The position numbers and the translations under genes are program-made. A stretch of DNA of 64,000 bases. Source: a virus. The notes under the pieces were generated by a model that saw nothing but the letters and a program-made list of their open reading frames with translations, was not told where the DNA came from and did not search any database. This document shows positions 327 to 27,392 of this stretch, in pieces; the first letter of the stretch is position 1, and each line of letters starts with the position of its first letter. The stretch spans positions 1-64,000 of IMG/VR virus record IMGVR_UViG_3300025660_000003. One strand, 5' to 3'.

Positions 327-355
327 TACTACGGGGTGGGTCGGGAGTCTGAGCC
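327..355 (-). promoter_or_regulatory. Phage promoter-like element GGCTCAG-N16-GTAGTA
   Basis: On the minus strand GGCTCAG (355-349) is followed by exactly 16 nt and GTAGTA (332-327). The start codon of the leftmost gene is 14 nt further on. The same bipartite element with identical spacing occurs seven times in the window, always before a start codon. This copy touches the stop codon of the upstream gene. Confidence 0.7.
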
Positions 356-356
356 G

Positions 357-935
357 CTACCAGCGACGGTAGCTGCCCCGACCTTGGCTCCGGCCCCGGC
401 GGGGCTGCTGGTAGCTCTGGTTGCTGCGGTTCAGGTCTTCAGCCGTCTTCCAGCAGAGGTCGGCACAGACCTGGTTGCCGCCGGTCTTGACGCCCGTGTG
501 CTTGTTGGTGCGGACCTTGCTCACGAACTTCGGGGCTCCGCAGTGGCAGCGCGGGATGCTGACCACAGCCTTCCAGCAGTCCCGCATCCGCAGGATGACC
601 CGCTTGGTGATCTCGTCGATGACGCCCGTGCGGTTGACCCGCTTCTGAGCGGAGGCGATGCCACGCTCGCGGCCGTCTCGGCTGCGGTACATGACGCAGA
701 CCCGGATGGCGTCCTTGGCGACCGCTCTGGTCATGTCGCCTTCGATGGTCGAGTAGACCAGCACCCTGATCTTGCCGTCCGTGTTCGGGACCTCTCGGGC
801 GAACACTCGCTCCTTGGTTCCGTCGATGGTCGTCTCGATGAAGAGCGCCCTTGCGAACAGGGCCAGCAGTTCGGTCGCCAGCGTGCGGCGGTGGTCTCGG
901 TCGCGGGGGTCGTACTTGCTCGTCGGGTGGGTCAT
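357..935 (-). CDS. Hypothetical protein with C-terminal zinc-ribbon-like cysteines
   Basis: 192 residues. The central part is a well-formed alpha/beta sequence (TIEGDMTRAVAKDAIRV, then RVNRTGVIDEITKRVILRMR). It is followed by a CxC pair (RCHCGAPKF) and a later CxxxC pair (QVCADLCW) that could bind one zinc. The tail is basic and rich in Arg, Gln and Gly, which would suit nucleic-acid binding. A GGAG Shine-Dalgarno lies upstream of the ATG at 935, and a GGCTCAG-type promoter lies at 992-964. Function is unknown; a nucleic-acid-binding role is inference. Confidence 0.75.
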   Translation of the reverse strand: MTHPTSKYDPRDRDHRRTLATELLALFARALFIETTIDGTKERVFAREVPNTDGKIRVLVYSTIEGDMTRAVAKDAIRVCVMYRSRDGRERGIASAQKRVNRTGVIDEITKRVILRMRDCWKAVVSIPRCHCGAPKFVSKVRTNKHTGVKTGGNQVCADLCWKTAEDLNRSNQSYQQPRRGRSQGRGSYRRW

Positions 936-963
936 CGCTTGCTCCGTATCGTTCGTCCACCTC

Positions 964-992
964 CACTACTGACGGGGTTATGTTTCTGAGCC
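964..992 (-). promoter_or_regulatory. Phage promoter-like element GGCTCAG-N16-GTAGTG
   Basis: Minus-strand GGCTCAG (992-986), 16-nt spacer, GTAGTG (969-964). It lies 28 nt upstream of the ATG at 935. It is back-to-back with the plus-strand copy at 1024-1052, so the two form a divergent promoter pair in the 133-nt gap between genes. Confidence 0.75.
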
Positions 993-1023
993 CCAAATCG
1001 CAGATAGTTTCCGCGAAAATAGG

Positions 1024-1052
1024 GGCTCAGAACGCAGGGCACGTCAGTAGTA
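1024..1052 (+). promoter_or_regulatory. Phage promoter-like element GGCTCAG-N16-GTAGTA
   Basis: GGCTCAG (1024-1030), 16-nt spacer, GTAGTA (1047-1052), then 16 nt including GGAG before the ATG at 1069. It drives the PAPS-reductase-like gene. It mirrors the divergent copy at 992-964, and GGGGCTC/GAGCCCC ends flank the AT-rich centre between them. Confidence 0.75.
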
Positions 1053-1068
1053 GGGGTGAAGGAGAGAC

Positions 1069-2457
1069 ATGGCACGACGACCCCGAACGCTGGTGATCTT
1101 GAGCTACGGCCTTGGCTGGGACAGCACCGCCATCCTGGTCCGCTGGCTGCTCGACCCCTCCAGCCGAGACTTCGACCTCCGCGACCTCATCGTCGTCACG
1201 GCGATGACGGGGGACGAGTTCAAGTCGATGGGCGTCCTGGTCGAGAAGTACATCCTCCCCCTGATGCGAGCCCACGGAGTCCGCTTCGTGCAGGTCGCTC
1301 GCGGCGGGGCCAGCACCCGCGCTGGCGTCACCATCCTCGATGACTCCCGCTCCCCCACGAAGGTCTACCTCGACGGCGTCTACAAGCTGTCCGACGAGAT
1401 GCTGGAGTCAGCCACCGTCCCGCAGTTCGGTGGAGCCCGACTCTGCTCGCAGAAGCAGAAGGGCGTCCCCCTCGACTTCATCATCGACAAGCTGACCAAG
1501 GGCAAGCCCTTCCGACACGTCATGGGCTTCAACGCCGACGAGTTGAACCGGGTCGCCCGCGATGCCAGCTACTCCACCGTCACCCGCAAGTCCGAGTACC
1601 CGCTGGTCACCTGGGGCTGGGGCCGGGCGAAGCTCTCCGAGTACGTCCGCGAGTCCCTCGGTGTCGAGTGGGAGAAGAGCTGCTGCACCTTCTGTCCGTT
1701 CGCTGGCTCCTGCAAGGCCGAGAAGATGGAGGCCCTGACCTCCCGCTACACCGCCGAGCCCGAAGCCGCCGTGCTGGCCCTGACCATCGAGCGTCGGTCC
1801 CTGGCGATGAACGTCCGCCAGCCCCTCTTCGCCAAGACCTCCCTGTTCGACGTGCTGGCACAGACCGATCCCGCACTGGTCGCCCTCTTCGAGAAGGACT
1901 GGAACTCCGCGAAGGCCTGGAGCCTCTACCGCGTCCGCCGCAGCTTCCGTGGAGTCGGACAGGCCGTCCGCAGCCTGGAGTGCATCGCCACCGGCCCGAA
2001 GGCCCGGATGCTTGCCCGGCAAGCATCGTTCGGCGAGGTGGAGCACACCGCTGGTTCGCCCCGTGTCTTCGTGCAGCGCAAGGTCGAGGACGTGTTCCCC
2101 GTCAACGAGGATATGTACGTCGTCGCCCCGGCTGGTGTCGCCCCGAAGACCAACGCGATGTTCGACGCCTACTGGGTCCGCACCGGAGAGGTCGAGGCAG
2201 CCCGAGCGACCGGGGCCGATGAGCCCTGTCCGAAGGCACGGGCGATGAGCTTCGTGCTCCGGTACGTCGTGACCCACGCGGCCAACACCTTCACCAAGGG
2301 CGATGTCCAGCGAGCCGCCGGAGCCTCCGGGGTCTTCACCAAGGAGGCCGGAGCCGCCTACGACGAGCTGAAGGCCGAAGGCCGGTTCGGCAAGGTCGGC
2401 AAGCGCATGACTCTGGCCCCCGCCGCCTGGGGCTCAGTCGAAGCCTCACCCGCGTAG
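1069..2457 (+). CDS. PAPS-reductase-family (PP-loop) protein
   Basis: 462 residues. The N-terminus has a PP-loop-like motif, SYGLGWDST (residues 12-20), where the phosphoadenosine-phosphosulfate reductase family has SGGxDS. Further conserved parts are FRHVMGFNADE and a cysteine cluster C205, C206, C209, C215 (CCTFCPFAGSC) as in iron-sulfur or zinc-bearing family members. The region after about residue 250 is an extension ending in a winged-helix-like segment. The family activates or reduces adenylated sulfur compounds or acts in nucleotide modification; the substrate here is unknown. The start is chosen for its GAAGGAGAGAC ribosome site. A second promoter-like element sits at the 3' end. Confidence 0.75.
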   Translation: MARRPRTLVILSYGLGWDSTAILVRWLLDPSSRDFDLRDLIVVTAMTGDEFKSMGVLVEKYILPLMRAHGVRFVQVARGGASTRAGVTILDDSRSPTKVYLDGVYKLSDEMLESATVPQFGGARLCSQKQKGVPLDFIIDKLTKGKPFRHVMGFNADELNRVARDASYSTVTRKSEYPLVTWGWGRAKLSEYVRESLGVEWEKSCCTFCPFAGSCKAEKMEALTSRYTAEPEAAVLALTIERRSLAMNVRQPLFAKTSLFDVLAQTDPALVALFEKDWNSAKAWSLYRVRRSFRGVGQAVRSLECIATGPKARMLARQASFGEVEHTAGSPRVFVQRKVEDVFPVNEDMYVVAPAGVAPKTNAMFDAYWVRTGEVEAARATGADEPCPKARAMSFVLRYVVTHAANTFTKGDVQRAAGASGVFTKEAGAAYDELKAEGRFGKVGKRMTLAPAAWGSVEASPA

Positions 2458-2459
2458 TC
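2431..2459 (+). promoter_or_regulatory. Phage promoter-like element GGCTCAG-N16-GTAGTC
   Basis: GGCTCAG (2431-2437), 16-nt spacer, GTAGTC (2454-2459). It lies inside the last codons of the preceding gene, whose TAG stop forms part of the second box. It is 15 nt upstream of the ATG at 2475. Confidence 0.65.
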
Positions 2460-2474
2460 GGAGCAAGGAGATCC

Positions 2475-2702
2475 ATGCCCAGGTACACCAAGGCGCAGAA
2501 GGAACGAATGACCCGCTGGGCAGCTCGGTGGTGGGCTCAGTGCTTCAACGAGTGTCCGCCCCGGCACCCGAATCGAGAGCTTCACGCTCGGGCCTACGGC
2601 TTCTGGATGAACCGCACCGACCCGCTGCTCTCCCTGGATCTTGACGCGCTGTACGCGAAGACCGACGAGCTGCTCAGCACGAGACCGCCTAGTCGTCCGT
2701 GA
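2475..2702 (+). CDS. Small hypothetical protein (75 aa)
   Basis: 75 residues, Trp- and Arg-rich in the first half (MTRWAARWWAQCFNECPP), with no recognised domain. It has a clear AGGAG ribosome site and its own GGCTCAG-type promoter. It converges with the nuclease gene on the other strand and the two overlap by 14 nt at their ends. Short phage proteins of this kind are often host-takeover factors, but nothing in the sequence shows that here. Confidence 0.65.
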   Translation: MPRYTKAQKERMTRWAARWWAQCFNECPPRHPNRELHARAYGFWMNRTDPLLSLDLDALYAKTDELLSTRPPSRP

Positions 2703-3081
2703 ACTCCGGTGCGGGGACGTGTTGCCCCCCGCTGAAGTAGCAGGCCGGTCCCGGCAGATGGAACGACCCGAGGTCGGTCTCCCACCAGGTATTCACCATC
2801 TCCAGGTCGAGCATCCCGTACAGGTCGTCGGGGAGGCTCCCTAGCCCCGGCTCGATGAACCACTCGCCCTCGTATGTCCCCTGCGAGTGGAAGCCCTGTA
2901 GCGCCCTGTGGACGGCTCTCTCGCGTGGTCCCTGGTCCAGTACGACCAGGATGATGCGGAGCTTGAACGGGGAGCCCACCTGAAGGTCTTGTAGCCGACG
3001 TGGTGGGTTTGACGACCGGCCGACCTTGAAGGCTCCGGTCGTGTGGGACTGGATCAGGTAGAGGTGCTCACCGCCCCGCAT
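2689..3081 (-). CDS. GIY-YIG-like nuclease, Mug113/T5orf172 type
   Basis: 130 residues. The order LYLIQS - FKVGRSSNPPRRLQDLQ - ERAVHRALQGF - GEWFI is the signature of the T5orf172/Mug113 branch of the GIY-YIG nuclease superfamily: reduced GIY strands, conserved Arg, His and final Glu. An upstream in-frame extension is possible, but it would read through the coding region of the neighbouring gene. The ATG at 3081 gives a protein that begins just before the domain. The start overlaps the preceding gene by 14 nt, so the two are probably co-translated. Likely an endonuclease acting on DNA; target unknown. Confidence 0.8.
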   Translation of the reverse strand: MRGGEHLYLIQSHTTGAFKVGRSSNPPRRLQDLQVGSPFKLRIILVVLDQGPRERAVHRALQGFHSQGTYEGEWFIEPGLGSLPDDLYGMLDLEMVNTWWETDLGSFHLPGPACYFSGGQHVPAPEFTDD

Positions 3082-3232
3082 CGGGCTTCTCCGGCTTCTT
3101 GAACCCATCGCACTTGCAGGCCGCCCCGTCGCACTCCTGCCACAACGGGAGGAGCGGACGGAACTCGCGTCCGTGCAGGTGGCGGGGGTGGCCGCAGGTA
3201 CAGACATCGGCCCACTTGGGGTCGGGCTTCAC
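3068..3232 (-). CDS. Small Cys/His zinc-binding protein (54 aa)
   Basis: 54 residues from a GTG start two nucleotides after the stop of thyX. It has the pattern C11-x-C13-x-H15, H20 and then C34-x4-C39-x-C41, a spacing seen in many short phage and bacterial CxCGH proteins that probably bind zinc. It lies between thyX and the GIY-YIG-like gene in the same direction with almost no spacing, so it is part of that operon. Function unknown. The GTG start is inferred because no ATG is available in frame. Confidence 0.65.
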   Translation of the reverse strand: MKPDPKWADVCTCGHPRHLHGREFRPLLPLWQECDGAACKCDGFKKPEKPDAGR

Positions 3233-3234
3233 GG

Positions 3235-4203
3235 TTACTCGCCGAGCAGCTTGTCGAGCTTCGCCAGCAGCTCCTTGCGCTCCCGGCCCTTGCCGAGCTT
3301 GGAGCCTTCGATGGCCCGAGCGATGACCACCTTGCGGTTCAGCTCGTCGAGGTCCGGGAGGACCGCGTGCAGGAGGGTCCGAATCCCCTGCACGTCGAAC
3401 CGGGACAGGTACATGCCGTTGAGCCGGTAGTCCTCGAACGCCTCCCAGGCCCACGGCACCCACACCTTCACGATCTCGGCGATGGCCTCGGCGTAGGAGC
3501 GGATCTCCTTCTGGGCGTGGGGGTCGAGCCGCAGGCCCAAGAAGTGGAAGAGGTTGTGGAGGTCCATCTTCCAGTACGCCTCGGTGTAGGTGGAGAGGGG
3601 CAAGTCCTTCCGGGCCACCTCCTTCGCCACACCGAAGGCCAGCCGCTCCTCGTAGAGCGCCCTTGCGTGGCCGTGAAACTCCGCTTCGCGCATGGAGAGG
3701 TAGGTCGGGGCGCTCATGTTCTCCGGCCCGCCGATGTTCGACAGGGTGTCCCTGGTGCCCCGGAACCCGAAGCCTTTCGGCCTCTCGAAGCCGTCCGGCC
3801 AGTCGGTCACGACCCCGCTGGAGCCCTGCTTGTTGTCCTTGCTCTGCGACCGCCACTCGGTTGCGAGCTGTGCGGAGTCGATGGCGGGGGCGTAGCGGGT
3901 CGAGGACTCGTTCACGTTCGCCGTGCGGTGGCGAATCCACTGTCGCCAGGCGTCCATCGGCACCCGGACGCGGATCTTCAGCTCGCACATCTCGAACGGC
4001 GTCGTGTGGCGGCAGCGCATCAGGTAGCGGAGCAGGTGCCGGTTCGAGGCGTCGGTGCTGGTGTCCGCAGACCCGAAGAAGCTGACCCGGGCCGCGTCGA
4101 TGATGGAGCGGTCGTCGCCCATCACGTCGATGAGCTGGACGTGCCCATCGTTCAGGACAGGGATGGGGGTCGTGAACGGCAACAGGCGGTCAGGCAGACT
4201 CAT
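3235..4203 (-). CDS. thyX: FAD-dependent thymidylate synthase ThyX
   Basis: 322 residues. It carries the ThyX motif RHRx7S (R91-H92-R93 with S101, in RHRTANVNESSTRY) and the upstream family segment HTTPFEM (residues 66-72). The enzyme makes dTMP from dUMP using methylene-tetrahydrofolate and FAD/NADPH. Phages carry it to supply nucleotides during replication. It is longer than typical ThyX (about 220-250), with extra sequence around residues 110-190 and a basic C-terminus. It is first of a three-gene minus-strand operon and diverges from the putative spanin genes. Confidence 0.95.
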   Translation of the reverse strand: MSLPDRLLPFTTPIPVLNDGHVQLIDVMGDDRSIIDAARVSFFGSADTSTDASNRHLLRYLMRCRHTTPFEMCELKIRVRVPMDAWRQWIRHRTANVNESSTRYAPAIDSAQLATEWRSQSKDNKQGSSGVVTDWPDGFERPKGFGFRGTRDTLSNIGGPENMSAPTYLSMREAEFHGHARALYEERLAFGVAKEVARKDLPLSTYTEAYWKMDLHNLFHFLGLRLDPHAQKEIRSYAEAIAEIVKVWVPWAWEAFEDYRLNGMYLSRFDVQGIRTLLHAVLPDLDELNRKVVIARAIEGSKLGKGRERKELLAKLDKLLGE

Positions 4204-4209
4204 GCGGGG

Positions 4210-4271
4210 CTCCCAGGGTGAGGTGGTGTTCTGTCTATACCCGCAGGGCTAGTAGAACCCACCCTGGGGAG
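4210..4271. repeat. Imperfect dyad between thyX and the spanin genes
   Basis: CTCCCAGGGTG (4210-4220) is matched in inverse by CACCCTGGGGAG (4260-4271), with one extra G. Each arm contains the purine-rich ribosome site of one divergent gene. It may be an operator for both directions, or simply two copies of a preferred leader. CTATAC and TAGTAGAA lie between the arms; no GGCTCAG element is present. Confidence 0.4.
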
Positions 4272-4277
4272 ATGCAC

Positions 4278-4589
4278 ATGCCTGAGACACCACCGCCCGC
4301 CGCTCCCACCATCCCCTCGCCGGGGAAGTGGACTGATCTTGCGTTCAAGGTGCTGTCCATCCTGGTGGTCCCCTTGTGCCTGTGGGGGGTCAAGCTGGAA
4401 GTCGGCCAGGCTGTCCAGGACACGAAGATCGAGACCCTGGAAGTAGAGGTGGTCGCCGCCAAGGCCATCAAGGCTGGCGTCCAGGCCAACACGGTCACCC
4501 TCGGACGGGTAGAGGAGAAGCTCAATGGGACGAATGCCCGGCTGGACGAGATTCGGTCTGATCTGCGTCGCAGCCTGCCTCCTCGGTAG
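4278..4589 (+). CDS. Membrane/coiled-coil protein, putative i-spanin
   Basis: 103 residues. A proline-rich N-terminus is followed by one hydrophobic segment (about 21-40, FKVLSILVVPLCLWGV) and then a helical, heptad-like region rich in E, V, A and K to the end. This is the layout of an inner-membrane spanin (Rz type) or a small holin-associated protein. A lipoprotein gene starts inside its 3' end in another frame, as in Rz/Rz1. The start is the ATG at 4278, with GGGGAG seven nt upstream. In Gram-negative lysis the pair would fuse inner and outer membranes; this role is inferred from architecture, not homology. Confidence 0.55.
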   Translation: MPETPPPAAPTIPSPGKWTDLAFKVLSILVVPLCLWGVKLEVGQAVQDTKIETLEVEVVAAKAIKAGVQANTVTLGRVEEKLNGTNARLDEIRSDLRRSLPPR

Positions 4590-5193
4590 TTGCGGCGACC
4601 CCACCCCCGTCCTGGAGCCCAACCTCGACGAGCTACTCAGCGGGGATTTCGATCTCATGGACATGGATTCCGATGGCGTCATGGACGTTCGGGACGATTT
4701 CCCTGGCGACGACGACTCGTCTGGCGACGACGACTCGTCTGGCGACGATGACTCGGCCCCGCTGTTGACCGTGGACCCGGTGGCGGTAGCGAAGGCCTGG
4801 GGAGTAGAGCCCACCCCGAAGTCGGAGCCCGCCTACGAGCCGGACCGATCAGGGAAGAAGCACGCCCCGGTCCCGGAGCTGATGGTTGAGGCTGCTGCGA
4901 TGCAGGAGCAGCGGGTGGTGGTGAAGCGGACCGACGTGAAGACGGAGATCCTCGATACGGACGTTGAGGATCTGGCAGCGGCGATCAGAGCGGCCCGGTA
5001 CGCCCGGCTCGACGAGTACGCGCAGAAGTGGCACTGGAAGGTGGAGGCCCCGAGCGACTGGCTCGTCAGGCACCCCGAGAAGCTGGAGTGGTGGAAGGAG
5101 TGGGTGGAGCTGAAGCCGGAGGCCGATGCTCTTGCACTCGCTCGCGCGGCTGTTGCGGTCAAGGAAGCTGCTGGCGAGGTGCCTGGTGACTGA
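4525..5193 (+). CDS. Lipoprotein, putative o-spanin
   Basis: 222 residues. The signal peptide ends in the lipobox L-G-S-C at C23 (CVAACLLGSCGDP). The gene begins within the preceding gene in a different frame, overlaps it by 65 nt, and has a strong GAGGAG ribosome site. Mature region: an acidic linker with three six-residue GDDDS(S/A) units, then a helical Trp-rich domain. Overlap plus lipobox suggests an outer-membrane spanin. It is longer than usual for that family, so a different phage lipoprotein (for example surface exclusion) is possible. A lipobox with such an acidic linker suits a Gram-negative host. Confidence 0.55.
   Translation: MGRMPGWTRFGLICVAACLLGSCGDPTPVLEPNLDELLSGDFDLMDMDSDGVMDVRDDFPGDDDSSGDDDSSGDDDSAPLLTVDPVAVAKAWGVEPTPKSEPAYEPDRSGKKHAPVPELMVEAAAMQEQRVVVKRTDVKTEILDTDVEDLAAAIRAARYARLDEYAQKWHWKVEAPSDWLVRHPEKLEWWKEWVELKPEADALALARAAVAVKEAAGEVPGD
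4705..4758 (+). repeat. Three 18-bp tandem units within the lipoprotein gene
   Basis: Units at 4705-4722, 4723-4740 and 4741-4758. The first two are identical and the third differs at a few bases. They encode G-D-D-D-S-S repeats directly after the lipoprotein N-terminus and are probably an unstructured acidic tether. Confidence 0.85.
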
Positions 5194-5461
5194 ACCGACC
5201 AAGCGTGAGATCCAGGCTGCTTTCGGGCAACGGGTCTACGAGTATCACGACGACAAGGGGACGGTGTACTACTCGTTCACCCAGGCTCCGAACATCATCT
5301 CGCCCCCGAAGCGGCTCAAGATGCAGAACCGGATCGGTGTCCATCTGGTGAACTTCGTGACGCGACTTCGGCGATTGAGCGACTCCATGCAGGTGCCGGA
5401 GGGGACGGCGGGTAGGGTGCCCCGCGTTGAGCAACACCCCCCTCCCGGAAGAAAACCATGA
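5186..5461 (+). CDS. Hypothetical protein (91 aa)
   Basis: Begins with a GTG that overlaps the lipoprotein stop by 8 nt and ends in an ATGA overlap with the next gene. Core region: REIQAAFGQRVYEYHDDKGTV, then a basic helix (RIGVHLVNFVTRLRRL) and a proline-rich tail. An upstream in-frame start at 5126 exists but would overlap the lipoprotein by 68 nt. Translational coupling on both sides supports it as a gene. Function not recognised. Confidence 0.5.
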   Translation: MTEPTKREIQAAFGQRVYEYHDDKGTVYYSFTQAPNIISPPKRLKMQNRIGVHLVNFVTRLRRLSDSMQVPEGTAGRVPRVEQHPPPGRKP

Positions 5462-5823
5462 GCGACAACGGCACCCCCCAGCAGCCTCCCCAGCCCCACA
5501 TCTTCGGTGAGGTCGAGCCCGACGAGCTTCAGCGGCTCGCCGGTCTGAAGCAGCAGGCGGACGGCATCATTCACCAGATGGGCGTCAACCGCGTCAACGA
5601 GCACCGGCTGATCATGCAGCTCAGTCAGTGCGAGCAGGCGACCAACGAGATCGTGAAGGTCGCGGGCGAACGCTTGGGCATCCCCAATGGCACCGCATGG
5701 TCCGTGACCAGCGACGGCAAGGCCGTCTCGGTCGGTCCGCAGCCGACACCTCCGCAGATGCGGCCGAACCTGTCCGCCGTCCCGACGCCGGACGCGGGCG
5801 AGGACACGACGCCGGAGGCGTGA
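5458..5823 (+). CDS. Hypothetical protein (121 aa)
   Basis: 121 residues. A helical centre (DELQRLAGLKQQADGIIHQMG ... EHRLIMQLSQCEQATNEIVKVAGERLGI) lies between Pro/Gln-rich ends. The shape suggests a small coiled-coil bundle. It is the first gene of the neck run and overlaps the preceding gene by 4 nt. It could be a scaffold-like or assembly factor, but no family is recognised. Confidence 0.65.
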   Translation: MSDNGTPQQPPQPHIFGEVEPDELQRLAGLKQQADGIIHQMGVNRVNEHRLIMQLSQCEQATNEIVKVAGERLGIPNGTAWSVTSDGKAVSVGPQPTPPQMRPNLSAVPTPDAGEDTTPEA

Positions 5824-5837
5824 AGGGCAGGGTGTAG

Positions 5838-7235: not shown

Positions 7236-7858
7236 TGGCCGGTCACGGCAAGGTGAAGGGCATCTACGCAGGCCCGGTCGCCAAGGTGCTGGACATCCCG
7301 GTCACCAAGGGTCTGCTGGAGAAGCTCGGCAAGTGCATGGTCGCGGCCTACGTCAAGGAGGCCAAGAAGGACTTCGCCAAGCGCGGCTGGTCCGGCGAGG
7401 CCCGTGACGGTTCGGCCCCCATCTGGGACTCATTCTCGTACCGCATCAGGGGCGACCGGACCATCGAGGTGCTGAGCACCTTCCCCGACATCGAGGTGTT
7501 GACCACTCAGGACATCCCCTCGCGGCGGATGACATGGCTGACGCAGGAGGGCAAGAACATGAAGCCCTCGCAGTACCCGGTCACCCCACGGGAAAAGAAG
7601 CTGGGGATGAAGCTGGGTGGCCGCGTCTCACAGAACAAGCGGATGCCCCTCGTGGTCCCCATGAAGGACAAGAGCGGCACGGTCGTCTTCCGCACAGCCC
7701 CATTGAAGATGCAGGACGCCTGGGTCCACCCCGGCATCGCGCGGTTCACCTTCATGGAGCGGGCGGTACGCACCGGCAAGGCTGGCTGTGTCCAGATCCT
7801 TGCTGATGAGGTCAGGAAGTCGCTAGGGCTGGAGCTGACGAAGCGGATGCGAGGATGA
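7235..7858 (+). CDS. Putative neck/tail-completion protein
   Basis: 207 residues. An N-terminal helix (LLEKLGKCMVAAYVKEAKKDFAKRGW) leads into beta strands and the segment WVHPGIARFTFMERAVRTG followed by a terminal helix. This order resembles the HK97-gp10-like tail completion fold found in many tailed phages. Translationally coupled to the gene before (TGATG) and after (ATGA). Assignment rests on pattern and position; sequence similarity is distant. Confidence 0.55.
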   Translation: MAGHGKVKGIYAGPVAKVLDIPVTKGLLEKLGKCMVAAYVKEAKKDFAKRGWSGEARDGSAPIWDSFSYRIRGDRTIEVLSTFPDIEVLTTQDIPSRRMTWLTQEGKNMKPSQYPVTPREKKLGMKLGGRVSQNKRMPLVVPMKDKSGTVVFRTAPLKMQDAWVHPGIARFTFMERAVRTGKAGCVQILADEVRKSLGLELTKRMRG

Positions 7859-8430
7859 TCGAGGCCGAGGTCACCTGCCAGTGTGCTCAGATTGCTCTGC
7901 CGGATCTGCGGCTGTCCATGGTGAACGGTCAGGTCGTCTATCTGGATGAGGCCGATGCAAAGGCATCGGTGGACCTTCAACGGGCGTGGAGGGCGAAGGC
8001 CGTCATCGTCAAGTACATCAAGCGATTCCGAGAGCGAAGGGCAGCCCGGCTGGCCCTCCCGGAGCCCCCTACGCAGCAGGGGGTAGGGTTCCTGCCGCCG
8101 GGACCGCTGGAACAGACCGTGGTGGTCGATGTCGAGGCGATAGCCCAGCGTGTCGCAGAGCTGCTGGAGCCTCGCCTTGTAGCCAGCGTCACAGCCTCCG
8201 TGGTGGCCGCTCTGCGCTCCGAAGGCCCCGTGGTGGTCGCTGGTACCCCGGCTGTGCCCGCCCCGCCACAGGCGCTCGTGGGGGATGACGTGCCGGTGTT
8301 CATCCCGTCGAAGATCGGCAACGCCCTGGAGGCCGACCTTGAACTCCAGGCGACCACGGCCACTGAGGGGGTAGTGTCTGACGCGGCTGCTGCCTTGCGG
8401 GCCGCCCGGAAGAAGCAGGAGCCGACATGA
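7855..8430 (+). CDS. Hypothetical protein in neck operon (191 aa)
   Basis: 191 residues. The N-terminal region has two close cysteines (VTCQCAQIAL) and a basic helix (YIKRFRERRAARLAL). Then come a Pro-rich linker, an amphipathic helix (VEAIAQRVAELLEPRLVASV) and the short motif DDVPVFIPSKIG near the C-terminus. Overlaps its neighbours by 4 nt on each side. Its place before the actin-like gene suggests the two act together, but no function is recognised. Confidence 0.65.
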   Translation: MIEAEVTCQCAQIALPDLRLSMVNGQVVYLDEADAKASVDLQRAWRAKAVIVKYIKRFRERRAARLALPEPPTQQGVGFLPPGPLEQTVVVDVEAIAQRVAELLEPRLVASVTASVVAALRSEGPVVVAGTPAVPAPPQALVGDDVPVFIPSKIGNALEADLELQATTATEGVVSDAAAALRAARKKQEPT

Positions 8431-9431
8431 GCAAGAAAAAGACCCTTGGGGTCGGGCTGGACATCGGGACGATGAACATCGTCTCCGCTCGCAGCGTCGG
8501 TGGCAGCATCGAGACGAAGCGGATGCGGGACGCCTTCATGTCCATGCCCCCGAACAAGACCCGGATGCTCAAGCTCTCGGAGACCAGCTTCGTCGAGCGC
8601 GAACATGATGTGCTCCTGCTGGGCGATGCTGCGATGGAGATGGCCAACGTCTTCGGTGGCAATCCCCGCCGTCCCCTGGCTGGTGGGCTCATCGCTGCCG
8701 GGGAGTCCGATGCGCTGGGCGTGTTGAAGCTGCTCATCAAGAACGTGCTCGGGGAGCCGCAGATCGAGAACGAGGTCTGCTACTTCAGCGTCCCCGCTGC
8801 CCCCCTCGACCAGCCCGGCAAGGACATCATCTACCACCGGGGCGTCTTCGAGCGCATCGTCGAGGAGTGCGGGTTCGAGCCGTACCCCGCGAACGAGGCC
8901 ATGGGCATCATCTTCAGCGAGTGTGCTGCCGAGGGCTTCTCCGGCCTGTCCTTCAGCTTCGGCTCCGGGATGACCAACGTGGCCCTGGCCCTCAACACGA
9001 CCGAGGTGCTGTCCTTCTCCGTCCAGCGGGGCGGTGACTGGATCGATGAGCACGCAGCTCAGGCGGTGGGGATGACCCAGGCTCAGATGTGCGCCCTCAA
9101 GGAGAGCGGCATCGACCTGATGACCCACGAGACGCAGCCGGAAGAGGCCCTCACCCTGTACTACAAGGCGATGATCGACTTCGCGCTCGACCAGGTGGCG
9201 GCCCACTTCGTCGCGCAGTCCGGCCAGTTCACCTTCCCGAAGCCCATCCCCATCATCGTCTCCGGCGGGACGAGCATGGCGGGCGGGTTCATCGACTTTT
9301 TCAACAAGGTCTGGCGCAAGAAGAAGCGGAAGTTCCCCATCGAGGTCAGCGAGATTCGCTCGGCCAAGGACCCGCTCAACGCGGTGGCCTTCGGGATGCT
9401 TATCCAGTCCATGCAGGAGTACGAAGAATGA
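8427..9431 (+). CDS. Actin/Hsp70-fold ATPase (MreB/ParM-like)
   Basis: 334 residues, about the length of MreB or ParM. Three nucleotide-binding motifs are in the correct order. Phosphate-1 is VGLDIGTMNIV (D12). Phosphate-2 is SFSFGSGMTNVALAL (about residues 174-188). The adenosine motif is IPIIVSGGTSMAGGF (about 273-288). It therefore belongs to the actin-like ATPase superfamily and may form filaments or act as a chaperone-like ATPase. It sits co-translationally inside the neck/connector operon rather than in a replication or segregation cluster, which is unusual. Which branch (filament-forming, FtsA/PilM-like, or reactivase-like) cannot be told by eye. Confidence 0.8.
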   Translation: MSKKKTLGVGLDIGTMNIVSARSVGGSIETKRMRDAFMSMPPNKTRMLKLSETSFVEREHDVLLLGDAAMEMANVFGGNPRRPLAGGLIAAGESDALGVLKLLIKNVLGEPQIENEVCYFSVPAAPLDQPGKDIIYHRGVFERIVEECGFEPYPANEAMGIIFSECAAEGFSGLSFSFGSGMTNVALALNTTEVLSFSVQRGGDWIDEHAAQAVGMTQAQMCALKESGIDLMTHETQPEEALTLYYKAMIDFALDQVAAHFVAQSGQFTFPKPIPIIVSGGTSMAGGFIDFFNKVWRKKKRKFPIEVSEIRSAKDPLNAVAFGMLIQSMQEYEE

Positions 9432-9991: not shown

Positions 9992-10016
9992 TCTCCCTAT
10001 CCCTGGCAGGAGGTAG

Positions 10017-11210
10017 ATGTACTTCCAGCTCACAGAGGCGCTCAAGCGACGGTTCATCGAGGAGCTACGACGCTACTGGTCGTATCACCCGAAATACCGT
10101 GACGACCTTGTGCAGAACATCCAGGGGAAGTTCAGCTTCAAGGAGCGGCCCCAGCACGGGATCATCATCAAGACCGGCTCGGGCAACCGGGTAGACCTCT
10201 CAGCCGACAACTACATCGGCGTGGTCGAGTCCTACTGCCTGATGACCCGGGTGAAGAACAAGCCCGGCCTCTCGGTCGAGTGGGTGCGCGAAGACTCCGT
10301 CGCCATCCAGAACAACAACGGCTACTTCCCGTCGCCTCCCGGCCTCTACTACCTCGACGTGCAGGAAGAGGGCGGGAGCCTGGTCTTCTACGTGGACCCC
10401 CTCGTTGAGGTCTTCCACGAGCCCGTGAGCATGATCGACACGACGAGCGGGCAGCTCCAGCAGACCCCGGTGACCGGGAGCCTCCGGCTCTACGAACAGC
10501 CGTCCCGTTTCCAGCTTGTCGAGGGCGTGAACTACGACCTGAACGCCACCGGGGGCATCACCCTGACCAACCCGCTGACGGGCGGCCGGTGGTTGCAGGC
10601 CGACTACCGCTACCCCACACCGTCAACAGGGCCGTACCCCATCACGGAGATGCACGCGAACAACGTGGCCATCCCCGGAGTGGTCATCGCCTTCGGGCGG
10701 CGGGCACAGGCTGGCGACCAGGTGGCCATCATGGTCCACGACATCCGGCGTCCGGCCTACATGGAGTACGGCGGGAAGTGGGAGCTGACCCTCGACTGCG
10801 ACGTGATGAGCCGGGATGTCCACGCCCAGCAGGAGATCGTGGATCAGACGGTCATCTACCTCTGGGGCGTCCTGCGCTCGCACCTCTCGCACAAGGGCAT
10901 CGAGATCACGGATGTCTCGATGGGTGGGGAGTCCGAGGAGGTCTACGACGAGAACGGCGACGACTACTTCTACAACGCGAACTTCACCATCACCTGCCAG
11001 ACCGACTGGTCCATCCATGTCCCCATCGACGGCTGGATGCGGCAGGCGGCTCCCCTGACCCGCGCCCAGGCCGCCCAGATTGCCGCACTCTCCGACGATG
11101 ATCTTCGGGGTGAGGACGGTAACATCAAGGGTCTGGAGGCCCTCGGTGTCGAGGCGGTGCAGGACCCCTTCTGGTCCGGCCGACGAGGGACCTTTGAGAT
11201 GGTGAAGTAG
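10017..11210 (+). CDS. Virion structural protein, tail-terminator-like
   Basis: 397 residues with a perfect AGGAGG ribosome site. N-terminal helix FQLTEALKRRFIEELRRYWSYHP; middle part beta-rich with an Ig-like unit (GITLTNPLTGGRWLQADYRYP). The C-terminal part reads VIYLWGVLRSHLSHKGIEITDV...YFYNANFTITCQTDWSIHVPI, a pattern I associate with tail terminator or tail completion proteins of contractile tails. Its position just before the sheath gene fits. Assignment is by pattern and context. Confidence 0.5.
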   Translation: MYFQLTEALKRRFIEELRRYWSYHPKYRDDLVQNIQGKFSFKERPQHGIIIKTGSGNRVDLSADNYIGVVESYCLMTRVKNKPGLSVEWVREDSVAIQNNNGYFPSPPGLYYLDVQEEGGSLVFYVDPLVEVFHEPVSMIDTTSGQLQQTPVTGSLRLYEQPSRFQLVEGVNYDLNATGGITLTNPLTGGRWLQADYRYPTPSTGPYPITEMHANNVAIPGVVIAFGRRAQAGDQVAIMVHDIRRPAYMEYGGKWELTLDCDVMSRDVHAQQEIVDQTVIYLWGVLRSHLSHKGIEITDVSMGGESEEVYDENGDDYFYNANFTITCQTDWSIHVPIDGWMRQAAPLTRAQAAQIAALSDDDLRGEDGNIKGLEALGVEAVQDPFWSGRRGTFEMVK

Positions 11211-11218
11211 GAGCGAGC

Positions 11219-17467: not shown

Positions 17468-17474
17468 CCCCTAG

Positions 17475-17505
17475 GCGGGGTCAGGGCATGAGCCTCTGAC
17501 CCCGC
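17475..17505. terminator. Bidirectional hairpin after the sheath gene
   Basis: Perfect 10-bp inverted repeat GCGGGGTCAG (17475-17484) and CTGACCCCGC (17496-17505) with an 11-nt loop. It starts 8 nt after the sheath stop and 10 nt beyond the stop of the convergent minus-strand gene. No long T-tract follows on either side, so it may be a GC-rich terminator or an mRNA-stabilising hairpin. Confidence 0.75.
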
Positions 17506-17514
17506 ATCTAGGCC

Positions 17515-17832
17515 TCAGAGGATGCTCACGGTCGTCTTGGTCTCGACCTTGAGCTTCGCAGCGACCTTCAGCACCGCGAAGACGGGCGGCTTGCGACCGT
17601 AGGAGTGCTTCGGAACCGCCGAGAGTTCATCCACCTTCTCCTGGAGCCGGGCCTTGTCGGTGGTGACCCAGTGCTCGAAGGTGTCGGTGGTGACGGTGTG
17701 GGCGGGGTAGCCGTGCCCAGGATTGGTGCGGCTCCGCTCGTCACCCTCAACGTGGTGGGAGTCGGTCTTGTAGATGTGGACCGCGAAGTGCGGCCCCTCG
17801 GGGATGTCGGCGGGGGTGTTCACCCTTTGCAT
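17515..17832 (-). CDS. Hypothetical protein (105 aa)
   Basis: 105 residues from the ATG at 17832, chosen because AGGAG lies 7 nt upstream. A GTG 24 nt earlier is also possible. Soluble, His-rich centre (SHHVEGDERSRTNPGHGYPAH) and a helix DKARLQEKVDELSA. It follows the coiled-coil gene by 20 nt in the same direction and ends at the bidirectional hairpin. No family recognised. Confidence 0.65.
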   Translation of the reverse strand: MQRVNTPADIPEGPHFAVHIYKTDSHHVEGDERSRTNPGHGYPAHTVTTDTFEHWVTTDKARLQEKVDELSAVPKHSYGRKPPVFAVLKVAAKLKVETKTTVSIL

Positions 17833-17852
17833 TTCAGTGCTCCTGTTCGTGT

Positions 17853-18791
17853 TCACACGCGGTTCAAGATCGCCCCACCGCTGGCGGGGGTCAGATCGAA
17901 GATGCGATCCTCTGCCTCGCGGAGTAGCTCCGTCAGCCGCTCGACCTCTTCGGCGTGGGCCTCTGCCCTGGCGGCAAGCACGTCCTTCGCCTGACGCATT
18001 TCAGTGTTCGCGGCGTTCCGCTCATCCATCGCCTCATGCCACCGCTTCTCGGCAACTTCGGTCTCCTCACGGGCGGCCTTGACCTCCAGCTTCATCTTGT
18101 CGTAGTCCACCATCGCAGCCCGATACTTCGCGGCCTGCCTGCCTGCGACCTTCACGTCGGTGCGGGCCTTCCCCTTGGGGAAGTAGTGGCCCCACACCCC
18201 ATGGGACGAGACGACCTTGGAGACCTCGTGGGAACAGAGGGTCAGCCTGGTCCTTCGACCCGCCGCTCGCCATTCCTCGTACCAGACATCGTCGTCAGGC
18301 CCCAGGTAGCTCAAGTGGGGGAACAGGAACCGAAGCTCCGGCCGTCTGAGGACGTTCCCTTTCCTGATGGGCTCCGTCATGTAGGGGCGGATCGACTGGC
18401 TCTCACGCTCGCCAGCCCACCAGTGCCCGCCCTTGTCCTGACGCACGCTGGTCAGGCTGTCCGGCGAGAGGTGGCCCTCGACCACCTTGTTGGTGCGGGT
18501 GGATGACTCCTGCGGTAGTCCGATCTCCGGCAGATCGAACATCCGGGGGTTCGGCTTCGGGAAGTCCCGTGTCTGTCGATAGGTCTCCATCTGGGCCTTC
18601 GTGAGCCACAGCTCCTCGACCACTCCTGTGTGGAGGTTGAACAGGTGGTGGCTGACGTAGACGTTCATGTCCGCCGACGTGATGTACTCCACGTCATCCA
18701 GCGTGACCCGCGACACCACCTGAGCGTAGTGCTGCGTCACTCGATAAGACGAGTCGGCTCGAAGGACGAATGCGCGGGTCTCATGGTCCAT
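17853..18791 (-). CDS. Hypothetical protein with C-terminal coiled coil (312 aa)
   Basis: 312 residues. The N-terminal two-thirds form a mixed alpha/beta region (AFVLRADSSYRVTQHYAQVV...LTLCSHEVSKVVSSHGVWGHYF). From about residue 225 a long charged helix runs almost to the end (KMKLEVKAAREETEVAEKRW...AEEVERLTELLREAEDRI). The start is the ATG at 18791, only 5 nt after the GTAGTA box, so the transcript would be leaderless or nearly so. A more upstream ATG lies between the promoter boxes and is unlikely. Function unknown. Confidence 0.65.
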   Translation of the reverse strand: MDHETRAFVLRADSSYRVTQHYAQVVSRVTLDDVEYITSADMNVYVSHHLFNLHTGVVEELWLTKAQMETYRQTRDFPKPNPRMFDLPEIGLPQESSTRTNKVVEGHLSPDSLTSVRQDKGGHWWAGERESQSIRPYMTEPIRKGNVLRRPELRFLFPHLSYLGPDDDVWYEEWRAAGRRTRLTLCSHEVSKVVSSHGVWGHYFPKGKARTDVKVAGRQAAKYRAAMVDYDKMKLEVKAAREETEVAEKRWHEAMDERNAANTEMRQAKDVLAARAEAHAEEVERLTELLREAEDRIFDLTPASGGAILNRV

Positions 18792-18796
18792 GGGGC

Positions 18797-18825
18797 TACT
18801 ACGCTCGCAGTCGTGCATCTGAGCC
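18797..18825 (-). promoter_or_regulatory. Phage promoter-like element GGCTCAG-N16-GTAGTA
   Basis: GGCTCAG (18825-18819), 16-nt spacer, GTAGTA (18802-18797) on the minus strand. It is followed after 5 nt by the ATG at 18791. It lies in the gap after the 82-residue gene and would drive the coiled-coil gene and the 105-residue gene. Confidence 0.7.
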
Positions 18826-19074
18826 CTAGACGTTCAGGGCTTCCAGAGCCCTTCTGACGAGCTTCCAGACCGGGTAGCTGAGCCGTGGGTAGTCGAGGAC
18901 ATCGGCGGTCCTGGAGACCGCCTTGGGGCTCCCCTTGCGCATCAGACGGATGGCGTAGTTGCCTCGCCTCGCCTGCTTGCCAGTCCAGCTCGTGTTGTGG
19001 ATGAGCATCCGGCCGATCTCGAAGGCTTTGCTCTCCCGGCCTCCGGGCCACATCTCGATCTTGACGACGAGCAT
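18826..19074 (-). CDS. Small protein co-translated with the ubiquitin-like gene (82 aa)
   Basis: 82 residues beginning MLVVKIEMWPGG, with a beta-strand start, a conserved-looking RRGNYAIRLMRKG strand and a C-terminal helix (PVWKLVRRALEAL). Its ATG overlaps the stop of the ubiquitin-like gene by one nt (TGATG). The opening resembles a small family I associate with mobile elements and phages, but I cannot name a function. Third gene of the GHKL ATPase operon, so it is probably a partner of those proteins. Confidence 0.7.
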   Translation of the reverse strand: MLVVKIEMWPGGRESKAFEIGRMLIHNTSWTGKQARRGNYAIRLMRKGSPKAVSRTADVLDYPRLSYPVWKLVRRALEALNV

Positions 19075-19337
19075 CAGGTGATGCCGCCGGGGATGTTGAA
19101 GATGCGCTTCAGCGTGTCCCGGATCACGTCGGGGTCACGGACGATCTGAAAGCACGCCCCTGCTGAGATATGGGTGGTGGTGTCGCAGAGGTCCTGGCCC
19201 TGCACCACGATGATCTCGCCCTTGCGCATCAGCTCGTTGTCGGCCTCGGAAAGCAGGCAGCCCACGTCGTAGTCCGGGTGGACCTGCATCGGTCGGGCTT
19301 TGTCCCCGTCGATCAAAGTGACGTTGATGGCAGGCAT
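19074..19337 (-). CDS. Ubiquitin-like beta-grasp protein (87 aa)
   Basis: 87 residues. The strand-helix pattern follows ubiquitin: strand INVTLID, strand ARPMQVHP, helix DVGCLLSEADNELM, strand EIIVVQGQDL, then the turn CDTTTHIS and last strand ACFQIVRD. The middle part (VVQGQDLCD...IS.G..FQIV) parallels the ubiquitin segment IFAGKQLEDG...LHLV. A tail of about 18 residues follows, with Gly84-Gly85 two residues before the end. Start ATG at 19337 overlaps the ATPase stop (TGATG). No E1, E2 or JAB peptidase gene was recognised in the window, so conjugation is not shown; a protein-binding role is equally possible. Confidence 0.65.
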   Translation of the reverse strand: MPAINVTLIDGDKARPMQVHPDYDVGCLLSEADNELMRKGEIIVVQGQDLCDTTTHISAGACFQIVRDPDVIRDTLKRIFNIPGGIT

Positions 19338-21781
19338 CAGACCGGCTCCTCCGGCTCCATGGCCTTGCGGCGGTGCTCTGCGCCAACGCTCGTCGCCAGC
19401 GTCGTGAGAGCCGAGCATTCCAGCATGGCCTCGAACTCTGGCTTCGTCTCCACCGTCCAGTGCCAGAAGGGCGTCTTGCCGTTGCGGACTCTGTATAGGG
19501 CGGTCGTGCAGATGTGCTGGAGCAATCGCTTCTGGGCCTCCATCTGGAAGGCGGGGCTGTAGCCGTACAGGGTGCTTTGGATGGTCTCGTGATCGACAAA
19601 GACGGTGATGTCGATCACGACACGATCCTCATCCGCGTCGTTGATGGATACGGTGAGCAGTCGTTTCGACGGCCAGTCCGGGGGGAGATCCTTCGCCGTC
19701 ACCTGATGGATCTGCGGGCTGACCTGATCTGCGCTCGCCGTGTCTGTCGCCCCACCGCCCTTGTTGGTGGATGGCTGGGCCTTTGGCCCCAGCGGGCGGA
19801 GCTGGATCGACTGCTCCAGAGCAACACCATCCGGTGTGGGCACCGAGACGTAGATCACAGAGGGGATGTCCTTCTGGCTGATGTTCCCCCTCACCTTGAG
19901 GCGGGCTTCCCCATACGAGTCCGTCCATGTGATCGACGCTGGTGTCGAGGTCCACGCACTACGCGGCATGACGTGAAAGGGCGTGGTCCCATCCGGGACG
20001 GCGTTGCAACCGAGCCGGAGAGTGATGGTTCCGCCGACGTGCGCTCGAAGCGCCTCCTTCGAGTGCGTGATGAGCCGGAACGGCCCCTTGGGGTTGGGGA
20101 AGGTCGGGTTCTGTGAGCGGGCCTTGGACACCTGGCTGGTCGTACTTCTGAGGAATCGGACGTGGGCGTGGGCGTTCTGCGTGAACGCATCGGACCCCGG
20201 AGACTTGAACCCCTTGACCCTTTCGGCCTCGTAGCGGTCGCGGGCCACTGCCAGTACACCGGCATCACCCGAGATGCGGGTCTGGATTGCCTTCTGCATC
20301 CGCCGGACGATCTCGTGGCTGGTTCGCAGCGTCCGGTCTGACGAGACCATCTCGCGCTGGAGACCTCTGGACAGCGTCGAGAGGTCCACGTACAGGATCA
20401 TGTACTTCCGCAGGCTGCCGATGATGGACCTGTTCCCCATGTACCAGTCTGGGGTCGCCAGATGCACCGTGAAGGTGTCCTGCATGATGATGACCTGCTC
20501 TGGAATCCTGCCGTTCCACGTGGTCAGGGGCCGTTCAAGTACCCGCCCCTTGCGGCGCTTACCAGCAGCGTTGCCATCGTTCTTGGTCTTGGTGGGCAGC
20601 TTGTAGCGGTCATCCTGTGCCTCGACATCTGTCCTGGCGATTCTCTTCGTGATGAACGCCTTGACGCCCACCTTCTCGAAGGCTCCAGAGCGGCTTTCAA
20701 ACTCGATCAACCAGTCGAAGGACGCCTCGAAGCAGTTGAGCTTGCTGGTGTTGTTCTGGGCGCGGTGGGGTCGCGCCATGTTGTCGAGGATTCGGGTGAT
20801 GCCGCCTTTACACACCTTCCTTGTCGCCCCCCGAACCTTGTCGGTGGCCTTCGTGCGTTTGCGGGGCTTCTCCGACACATTCCGAAGTTCCACCAGGAGG
20901 TACGGAAGGAACGGTTCTGGGCAGATGCGCTCGAAGTCCCGGTAGGGGGAGTTCCCGTGGACGTTGATGAGCTGGGGGGAGATCCCCTGGTACTCAAAGT
21001 GGGTGATGGCTGTCCCGGGTCTGAACGGGACCCCGGTGGATGGCACCCAGTTCTTGTCCCGCTTGCGCTCACGGGCTTCTGCGGCCAGATCCCAGTGATA
21101 CGCCTCCTCTGGCGTCAGCCACGGGACCTGACCCTCGTTGTTCGTGAGGGTCAGCCAGTGGGTCTCCTCGGCCTTCGTCCAGGGCACCTTGACGATGAAC
21201 ATGATGGAAACGCGGTCGTCGTCACCAGGCTCCAGGAGATCAGGGCTCCGGCGGGTGAGGATCAGCGTGCTGTCGCTCCACCGAAGCGTCTTTGCGCTCC
21301 CGTCGTGCCAAGTGCCGATGGTGTAGGGCTTCGCGGTCTTGGCGTTCTTGTGGACTCCACCCAAGGTCTGAGGGACCTGTGCGTGCGTCTGACCGCAGCC
21401 GTAGTCCCGGTAGATCACGTTGTCCAGCGTGTCGCCTGGCGTGAGGGCGACCACGATGTTCTCTGCGAGTTCGGCTCTGCGGTCACTGGATACCCCGGCC
21501 AAGCCCGCGACCCCAAACTGACGCAGCACCGCTTCCTGGGGGGAGCCCGGAGCATCCTCACCCCGCAGCAAGGCCCGCTCCACACCGAGTTCGATCATGG
21601 CGTCCTGCGAGTTCTGCACCCGCTCGCCGAGCTTGAGGACGGCACTGTTGCTGCCCTCAATGGTGGCCCGGTGTCCGAAGGGGACGAAACGGTAGCCGTG
21701 GTCTGCTACCAGCAAGTCGGCAGCCACCCTGGCTGCCGAGCTGGTCCGGGCCATCATCAGATGGCGAAGAGCTTCGATCAT
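19337..21781 (-). CDS. GHKL-superfamily ATPase (814 aa)
   Basis: The N-terminal 200 residues carry the GHKL (Hsp90/MutL/MORC-like) ATP site. The N box is E53xxxN57xxD60-A61 (ERVQNSQDAM), G1 is D126-Y-G128-C-G130, and a G2-like lid is GTWHDGSAK (156-164), with GGVHKNAKTAKP between. The following 600 residues are unrecognised and mostly beta-rich, with a basic stretch (KPRKRTKATDKVRGATRK) that may touch nucleic acid. Such ATPases work as ATP-gated clamps in DNA repair, chromatin (MORC) and restriction-type systems. AGGAG precedes the ATG at 21781. It is first of a three-gene co-translated operon with the ubiquitin-like protein. Confidence 0.75.
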   Translation of the reverse strand: MIEALRHLMMARTSSAARVAADLLVADHGYRFVPFGHRATIEGSNSAVLKLGERVQNSQDAMIELGVERALLRGEDAPGSPQEAVLRQFGVAGLAGVSSDRRAELAENIVVALTPGDTLDNVIYRDYGCGQTHAQVPQTLGGVHKNAKTAKPYTIGTWHDGSAKTLRWSDSTLILTRRSPDLLEPGDDDRVSIMFIVKVPWTKAEETHWLTLTNNEGQVPWLTPEEAYHWDLAAEARERKRDKNWVPSTGVPFRPGTAITHFEYQGISPQLINVHGNSPYRDFERICPEPFLPYLLVELRNVSEKPRKRTKATDKVRGATRKVCKGGITRILDNMARPHRAQNNTSKLNCFEASFDWLIEFESRSGAFEKVGVKAFITKRIARTDVEAQDDRYKLPTKTKNDGNAAGKRRKGRVLERPLTTWNGRIPEQVIIMQDTFTVHLATPDWYMGNRSIIGSLRKYMILYVDLSTLSRGLQREMVSSDRTLRTSHEIVRRMQKAIQTRISGDAGVLAVARDRYEAERVKGFKSPGSDAFTQNAHAHVRFLRSTTSQVSKARSQNPTFPNPKGPFRLITHSKEALRAHVGGTITLRLGCNAVPDGTTPFHVMPRSAWTSTPASITWTDSYGEARLKVRGNISQKDIPSVIYVSVPTPDGVALEQSIQLRPLGPKAQPSTNKGGGATDTASADQVSPQIHQVTAKDLPPDWPSKRLLTVSINDADEDRVVIDITVFVDHETIQSTLYGYSPAFQMEAQKRLLQHICTTALYRVRNGKTPFWHWTVETKPEFEAMLECSALTTLATSVGAEHRRKAMEPEEPV

Positions 21782-22536
21782 GGGGTCTCCTGTTCCGCAC
21801 TACGGGCGTCGGTTTCGGACTGAGCCCCGCAGTCAACGGTCGGTCCTTCGATCAGCCAGGACCTCGCGGGGCCATGGTCGTTGCGCTGGTCCCAGCCGGG
21901 GCGGTTCTCGGTCAGCCACTTGCGGGCCTCTGCCTCAGCATCGCGGCGAACGGCGTTGTTCGCCCTGTCCATCGCCTGCCTGGTCGGCATCGGCATGTCG
22001 TCGGGGAACTCCAGGTAGTAGCTGGTGTAGTGCTCGTAGTGGTTGATGTTGTCGCGGGAGTGCGGGTACTCCACGGGGAATGCCTGGATGGAGCCCTTGG
22101 CGTCGAGCACCTGGACGGTGCCGTGCTTCGGCCCCAGCTCCTTCAGCCGGACGGAGTAGCGTTGCCCGATGCGGACATCGACCGGCTCCCAGCCGTGGAT
22201 GTACCACCAGATGCGCTGGATGCCCTTGTCGTCGAACAGCCCGTTGTGGCCGTTGCTGGTGGACTTGGCTTCCCACCCCTCCGGGAGCACCACGGAGAGC
22301 GTGTTGCACCCGCCGACCATCTGCGTGATCCGGCCCCCACCTTCGAGGATCTCCATGCCCCACAGCTCCAGGGCTTCGCGGGAGCCGTCCTTGTCCGGGA
22401 TCTTCCCGGACGCAGCTCGCTGCGACATCTCGACGGCGACTCCGACCCCCTCGCCGGGCTTGCAGCCACCCATGGTGATGCCCATCGCGGCCATCTGGAA
22501 CGGATTGTCGTCGCGGTCAACTGTCTTGCGGCCCAT
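21778..22536 (-). CDS. Hypothetical protein (252 aa)
   Basis: 252 residues from the ATG at 22536 with GGGAGACCT just upstream. N-terminal half is glycine-rich (MAAMGITMGGCKPGEGVGVAVEM). The middle looks like a beta-sandwich (RIGQRYSVRLKELGPKHGTVQVLD) and the C-terminus is charged (ARKWLTENRPGWDQRNDHG). Its stop overlaps the ATPase start in ATGA, so read-through from its promoter can feed the ATPase operon. The internal promoter at 21826-21798 lies within its 3' end. No family recognised. Confidence 0.65.
   Translation of the reverse strand: MGRKTVDRDDNPFQMAAMGITMGGCKPGEGVGVAVEMSQRAASGKIPDKDGSREALELWGMEILEGGGRITQMVGGCNTLSVVLPEGWEAKSTSNGHNGLFDDKGIQRIWWYIHGWEPVDVRIGQRYSVRLKELGPKHGTVQVLDAKGSIQAFPVEYPHSRDNINHYEHYTSYYLEFPDDMPMPTRQAMDRANNAVRRDAEAEARKWLTENRPGWDQRNDHGPARSWLIEGPTVDCGAQSETDARSAEQETP
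21798..21826 (-). promoter_or_regulatory. Phage promoter-like element GGCTCAG-N16-GTAGTG
   Basis: GGCTCAG (21826-21820), 16-nt spacer, GTAGTG (21803-21798) on the minus strand, inside the end of the 252-residue gene. The ATG of the GHKL ATPase is 16 nt downstream with AGGAG between. Confidence 0.7.
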
Positions 22537-22557
22537 AGGTCTCCCTTGTTCATCAGG

Positions 22558-22586
22558 GACTACGCCCGCCGGGATTCTTCTGAGCC
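22558..22586 (-). promoter_or_regulatory. Phage promoter-like element GGCTCAG-N16-GTAGTC
   Basis: GGCTCAG (22586-22580), 16-nt spacer, GTAGTC (22563-22558) on the minus strand. The ATG of the 252-residue gene is 21 nt downstream. Confidence 0.7.
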
Positions 22587-27334: not shown

Positions 27335-27355
27335 CGCTGATGCGACTATGGATTC

Positions 27356-27389: not shown

Positions 27390-27392
27390 CCC

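Follow-up and report, generated by a model that had tools for sequence, protein, structure and literature searches.

The stretch of viral DNA considered here (the window) comprises bases 1-64,000 of the 141,696-bp record IMGVR_UViG_3300025660_000003, and carries seven copies of a bipartite element, GGCTCAG-N16-GTAGT, in front of phage genes. A sequence-only reading of the window had proposed that these copies form a promoter class for non-structural genes that is read by a phage RNA polymerase, a phage sigma factor or a modified host enzyme. All seven proved to be exact, on the strands and at the positions claimed, with a 16-nt spacer in each, and they are the only zero-mismatch matches in the window. 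Because of their copy number, fixed spacer, orientation, position before start codons, restriction to non-structural genes and conservation in relatives, the assignment to a bipartite promoter class of non-structural genes is well supported. The copies and the genes downstream of them are as follows.

328..355, minus strand: GGCTCAG-ACTCCCGACCCACCCC-GTAGT, 15 nt before g1 (ATG at 312)
965..992, minus strand: GGCTCAG-AAACATAACCCCGTCA-GTAGT, 29 nt before g2, forming a divergent pair with the copy at 1024
1024..1051, plus strand: GGCTCAG-AACGCAGGGCACGTCA-GTAGT, 17 nt before g3 (PAPS-reductase-like; PAPS, 3'-phosphoadenosine 5'-phosphosulfate)
2431..2458, plus strand: GGCTCAG-TCGAAGCCTCACCCGC-GTAGT, which overlaps g3 at its 3' end and lies 16 nt upstream of a 75-amino-acid open reading frame (ORF) with its ATG at 2475
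18798..18825, minus strand: GGCTCAG-ATGCACGACTGCGAGC-GTAGT, with the in-frame ATG of g19 6 nt after GTAGT
21799..21826, minus strand: GGCTCAG-TCCGAAACCGACGCCC-GTAGT, within the end of g23, 17 nt before g22
22559..22586, minus strand: GGCTCAG-AAGAATCCCGGCGGGC-GTAGT, 22 nt before g23
1..312, minus strand: g1, downstream gene, cut by the end of the record
357..935, minus strand: g2, downstream gene
1069..2457, plus strand: g3, downstream gene, weakly PAPS-reductase-like
17853..18791, minus strand: g19, downstream gene, its start placed at the ATG behind the element
19337..21781, minus strand: g22, downstream gene, function not assigned
21778..22536, minus strand: g23, downstream gene, function not assigned

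The copies had been described as lying 5-28 nt before start codons; their closeness to starts stands, but the exact range does not, the distance from GTAGT to the start being 6-29 nt. That the base following GTAGT is A, G or C holds in 19 aligned copies. Across the entire record the pattern has 20 exact copies (9 forward, 11 reverse), and a reversed control pattern has none. When spacers of 8-25 nt were scanned in the record, all 20 hits fell at 16 and none at any other length, with about 0.04 joint hits expected per spacing from the 48 GGCTCAG and 216 GTAGT words present. A position weight matrix scan gave 21 sites at 25.7-43.8 bits, the next best scoring 11.2; the 21st, at 124561, has one mismatch in its first box (GGATCAG). 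The motif also ranks first in an unbiased count of all 5-mer/gap/5-mer pairs, and its wider consensus is GGGGCTCAGAA(C)-N13-(C/A)GTAGTAGGGGTGAA.

Placement with respect to genes is equally specific. In 16 of the 21 cases the site ends at most 60 nt ahead of a same-strand called start, against an expectation of 2.6%; this is true of none of the 28 GGCTCAG words that lack the second box. The five sites outside this zone include the copy at 2431, which precedes a small uncalled ORF, a tandem pair at 101176 and 101250, and the copy at 121208, which lies inside g92, 147 nt before g93; at 18825 the in-frame ATG follows after only 6 nt. Four divergent pairs are present (992/1024, 101104/101176, 118472/118484 and 135515/135525). 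Co-directional runs of genes behind the sites cover 69 of the 87 genes of the non-structural region and no structural gene; the proposed restriction to non-structural genes held for the record as a whole. Among the genes served are a SNF2 helicase, a helicase loader and a DnaB-like protein (g67-g69, named from their sequences), as well as a primase, a family A DNA polymerase and an exonuclease. No second promoter class was found for the structural genes, the residual signal being the opposite strand of the divergent pairs.

Relatives of the phage were located by scanning viral contigs with a DNA pattern; a DNA search of a phage collection with the window as query gave no match. Contig G002 follows the record in nearly collinear order, has 11 copies of the motif, including one identical to the copy at 965..992, and shares an exact 137-bp end overlap with contig G012. 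Contigs G009 (169 kb) and G017 (105 kb) likewise share an exact end overlap of 127 bp. These overlaps indicate a phage genome of at least 274 kb, of which the present record is a fragment, the phage being an uncultivated jumbo phage. That G017 might come from an unrelated phage sharing the motif was rejected on the grounds of the overlap; since G009 and G017 are pieces of one genome, G017 is not independent evidence for the motif. The proteins of this relative have about 65% amino acid identity to those of the record. In G009 there are 36 copies, almost all of which have GGCTCAA for their first box, and G017 has 7 more, the motif being GGCTCAA-N16-GTAGT with the extended consensus GGGCTCAAC...CCGTAGTAGG. 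A site is retained in G009 at five of six shared downstream genes, the orthologue of g2 among those keeping one.

A more distant relative, LR745208.1 (485 kb), belongs to the same phage clade (50% identity in DNA polymerase and 51% in the sigma-like protein S1, described below), but has a different class, CTAAA-N16-CCGATAGG, with 49 copies, long extended conservation and positions before ORFs that are mostly small (e.g., 1608-158899, 464670/464698). Its boxes resemble those of sigma28/FliA/WhiG promoters and are unlike GGCTCAG/GTAGT. The exchange is complete, with no copies of the CTAAA-type class in the present phage and none of GGCTCAR-N16-GTAGT in LR745208.1.

Several other features of these genomes were noted in passing. 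Genes g26-g28 of the window (24252-27839) encode a MerR regulator, a VIT/VWA protein and a phospholipase D (PLD) nuclease-like protein, are missing from G002 and G009, and are associated with a strong sigma70-type promoter, TTGACA-N17-TAGGGT; they are acquired cargo. Positions 110653-113333 and 129470-130662 of G000 have no confident gene calls, the rest of the genome being dense. G017_64 and G017_72 contain, by eye only, intein-like insertions, apparently in a recombination-type ATPase gene and in another large gene of the replication region.

As had been claimed, the boxes correspond to none of sigma70, sigma54 and sigma28. They differ from the sigma70 consensus TTGACA-N16-18-TATAAT, and a scan with that consensus finds no site at these copies; both the sequences and the 16-nt spacing differ from the sigma54 element TGGCAC-N5-TTGC; and the sigma28 pattern TAAA-N15-GCCGATAA has no copies in G000, G002, G012, G009 or G017. 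What is found is an element that is over-represented, specific to the phage and fixed in its spacing, in front of phage gene units, as in promoter classes of the 7-11/phiEco32 type.

Of the three readers suggested at the outset, a phage sigma factor is the best supported. Family scans of the record named no RNA polymerase, PF00562 had no hit in six related viral records, LR745208 and Tunturi_5 (no complete genome among them), and the relatives' called genes contain no NADFDGD-like motif; nothing in these data points to the beta/beta' subunits of a phage multisubunit RNA polymerase of the phiKZ/AR9 type. In the present record, sigma region 2 and region 4_2 gave only sub-threshold hits. However, two sigma-like genes lie in the part of the genome outside it, S1 (G012 32318-32899; G017 58091-58672) and S2 (G012 61705-63015; G017 87768-88760). 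S1 has two Sigma70_r4 domains (Pfam, E 1e-16), with no region 2 seen. A hidden Markov model (HMM) of extracytoplasmic function (ECF) sigma factors, built from the sigmas of a Deltaproteobacterium and run against all phage proteins, placed S1 (E 1.7e-10) and S2 (E 0.0064) at the top, with S2 matching in region-2 and then region-4 segments, in the right order; by hhalign profile comparison the two ranked first and second of 121 orthologue pairs. A Foldseek search of the PDB with a model of the C-terminal half of S2 returned mainly sigma factors (E 0.03-0.5), the best local match being region 4 of sigmaA (probability 0.98, root-mean-square deviation 2.6). An AlphaFold model of full-length S2 was unusable, with a predicted local distance difference test score (pLDDT) of 41. 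A housekeeping-type promoter, TTGNNN-N16-TAGNNT, precedes S2 in both relatives (TTGCTA-N16-TAGGCT and TTGACC-N16-TAGCTT, read by eye), and a similar site precedes S2 in LR745208. In LR745208.1 S1 has an identical recognition helix, S2 is strongly diverged and the promoter class is different; S2 thus tracks the change of promoter and fits it better than S1, which does not, but over three lineages this pattern is suggestive only.

Comparable arrangements are known. In Salmonella phage 7-11, late promoters of the form GTAAtg-(16)-aCTA are read by the sigma factor gp47 with host core RNA polymerase, the start points of transcription being 6-9 nt away from the element (PMC8948821). The likeness extends to a bipartite structure with a 16-nt spacer, several copies before gene units, a phage sigma factor (here a candidate) with region 4, and a promoter that changes between relatives (PMC8948821). 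The boxes are different, however, and phage 7-11 has 8 promoters serving late genes, as compared with 20-40 serving replication and takeover genes here; it is also phiEco32-like rather than jumbo, and the role of gp47 was shown biochemically, whereas that of the reader here is deduced from sequence. In phiEco32 itself, the sigma factor gp36 likewise steers host RNA polymerase to a phage-specific class, the middle/late promoters tAATGTAtA (PMC8948821), but these are single-element promoters and gp36 is without region 4. Jumbo phages of group 2 have no RNA polymerase but do have sigma factors, including minimal helix-turn-helix (HTH) versions (PMC7824862); compared by description, they resemble the present phage, for which sigma-like genes (in relatives' contigs) but no RNA polymerase were found, and differ from it in having a family B rather than a family A DNA polymerase.

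Taken together, it appears rather likely that GGCTCAG and GTAGT are the -35 and -10 boxes of a jumbo-phage promoter class of delayed-early/middle genes, read by S2 in combination with host core RNA polymerase. Early transcription by the host sigma factor would produce the ECF-like S2 from its housekeeping-type promoter; S2 would then displace host sigma on the core enzyme and direct it to GGCTCAG/GTAGT, switching on genes for replication, nucleotide metabolism and takeover, presumably at delayed-early or middle times. S1, which has two region-4 domains, may be a helper in this or act on a different class. If phage 7-11 is a guide, transcripts would begin about 6-9 nt beyond GTAGT and have very short leaders or none; with the g19 ATG 6 nt after GTAGT, a leaderless message is therefore expected at 18825.

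The element also occurs in bacteria. Strict scanning of 85,000 species genomes yielded five stretches, two of which are genuine as judged by clustering. In contig SBGO01000334.1, of a Deltaproteobacteria metagenome-assembled genome, two copies that match the phage sites in score (35.5 and 32.6 bits) and lie at 4895-4922 and 10183-10210 of locus L100 precede an AAA-ATPase/SWIM/MoxR-like/DUF2201 operon in a defence island, whose neighbours include an IetA-like AAA protein, a CARF-AAA-HTH regulator and a type IV restriction enzyme. In the Actinomycetales contig DBPQ01000107.1, copies with scores of 30.6, 23.0 and 8.9 bits precede the integrase, resolvase and ArdC-like (anti-restriction) genes of an integrative element; the three positions in locus L103 are 3820-3847, 7617-7644 and 8627-8654. 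Lone strict matches in long open frames (L092, L094, L254, L256) or outside one (L096) were treated as chance. With looser criteria, more than 100 stretches came up in viral contigs, most of those examined being one conserved prophage coding sequence rather than promoters; this sequence (e.g., L127, L133, L137) holds GGCTCAACCGCACC...CGTAGTAGG by coincidence and is a trap for motif scans. The two bacterial elements either use an unrecognised reader or respond to a phage-supplied sigma factor. It is conceivable, though very doubtful, that such host-side mobile elements took up the promoter as a tripwire, so that the genes behind it are switched on only if an invading phage brings the corresponding sigma factor; should they respond in this manner, mobile elements would have a means of detecting infection that is new.

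These bacterial copies bear on who reads the element. The spacing of the boxes resembles that of ECF promoters, and a host-encoded alternative sigma factor of ECF type, which the phage would recruit to transcribe its genes early, could also account for copies in two bacterial genomes in which no S2 homologue was found. Against such a host factor, the motif is limited to one contig in each of those genomes, and no other genome with more than one match occurs among 379 of the first's phylum and 149 of the second's order. With five stretches in the strict scan, only the Deltaproteobacteria one having two matches, no chromosomal regulon is visible (the host of the phage may lie outside the set), and reading by a host sigma is fairly unlikely. 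S1, or another phage DNA-binding protein, might instead appropriate host sigma or core and act with it, as T4 MotA/AsiA or gp33/gp55 do. S1 is a clear Sigma70_r4 protein that is 86% conserved between the two relatives, and jumbo phages are described as having gp33-like proteins as well as minimal sigma factors with a single HTH (PMC7824862), but S1 retains its recognition helix in LR745208 despite the different class there, which is absent here, and shows no region 2 that would read a -10 box; a reader of this kind is quite improbable. That the motif is no promoter at all, but a repressor operator or an mRNA leader element, would also suit its closeness to start codons. The boxes are asymmetric, however, with a single fixed spacer and an A+T-rich stretch directly upstream of the -35 box in intergenic copies (50% vs 34%). 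Moreover, there are four divergent pairs, of which 118472/118484 has only 11 nt between its first boxes and therefore little room for other promoters, and sigma70-like sites in 40 kb of promoter-bearing regions are at or below the level of shuffled sequence, making an operator or leader element highly improbable.

Reading by S2 has its own difficulties, and the following weigh against it. The gene is encoded only in contigs of close relatives and not in the present record, and the two bacterial genomes have the promoter but no S2 homologue that could be found. Its Pfam match to Sigma70_r4_2 (E 0.0014) is under the curated cut-off, and its region 2 is recognised weakly. The AlphaFold model of its C-terminal half has low confidence (pLDDT 51, with about 74 in the region-4 part) and is supporting evidence only, and no Foldseek hit to the model has E <0.029. 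Finally, the connection of S2 with the promoter is drawn from three lineages.

In summary, the principle of a phage sigma factor reading a phage-specific class has precedents in a few smaller phages (phiEco32-like), but the signal described here is new, a literature search on the promoter string giving nothing relevant, and its candidate sigma factor is probably new as well. For a clade of jumbo phages known only from metagenomes, there is now a regulon that is defined and predictable, together with a named candidate for its reader; within this clade, relatives have rewired the promoter class completely, from GGCTCAR-GTAGT to a sigma28-type element or the reverse. So tight and orthogonal a promoter may be of use as a tool, and the co-evolution of sigma factor and promoter, together with the timing of gene expression in jumbo phages, would become testable in vitro without phage or host.
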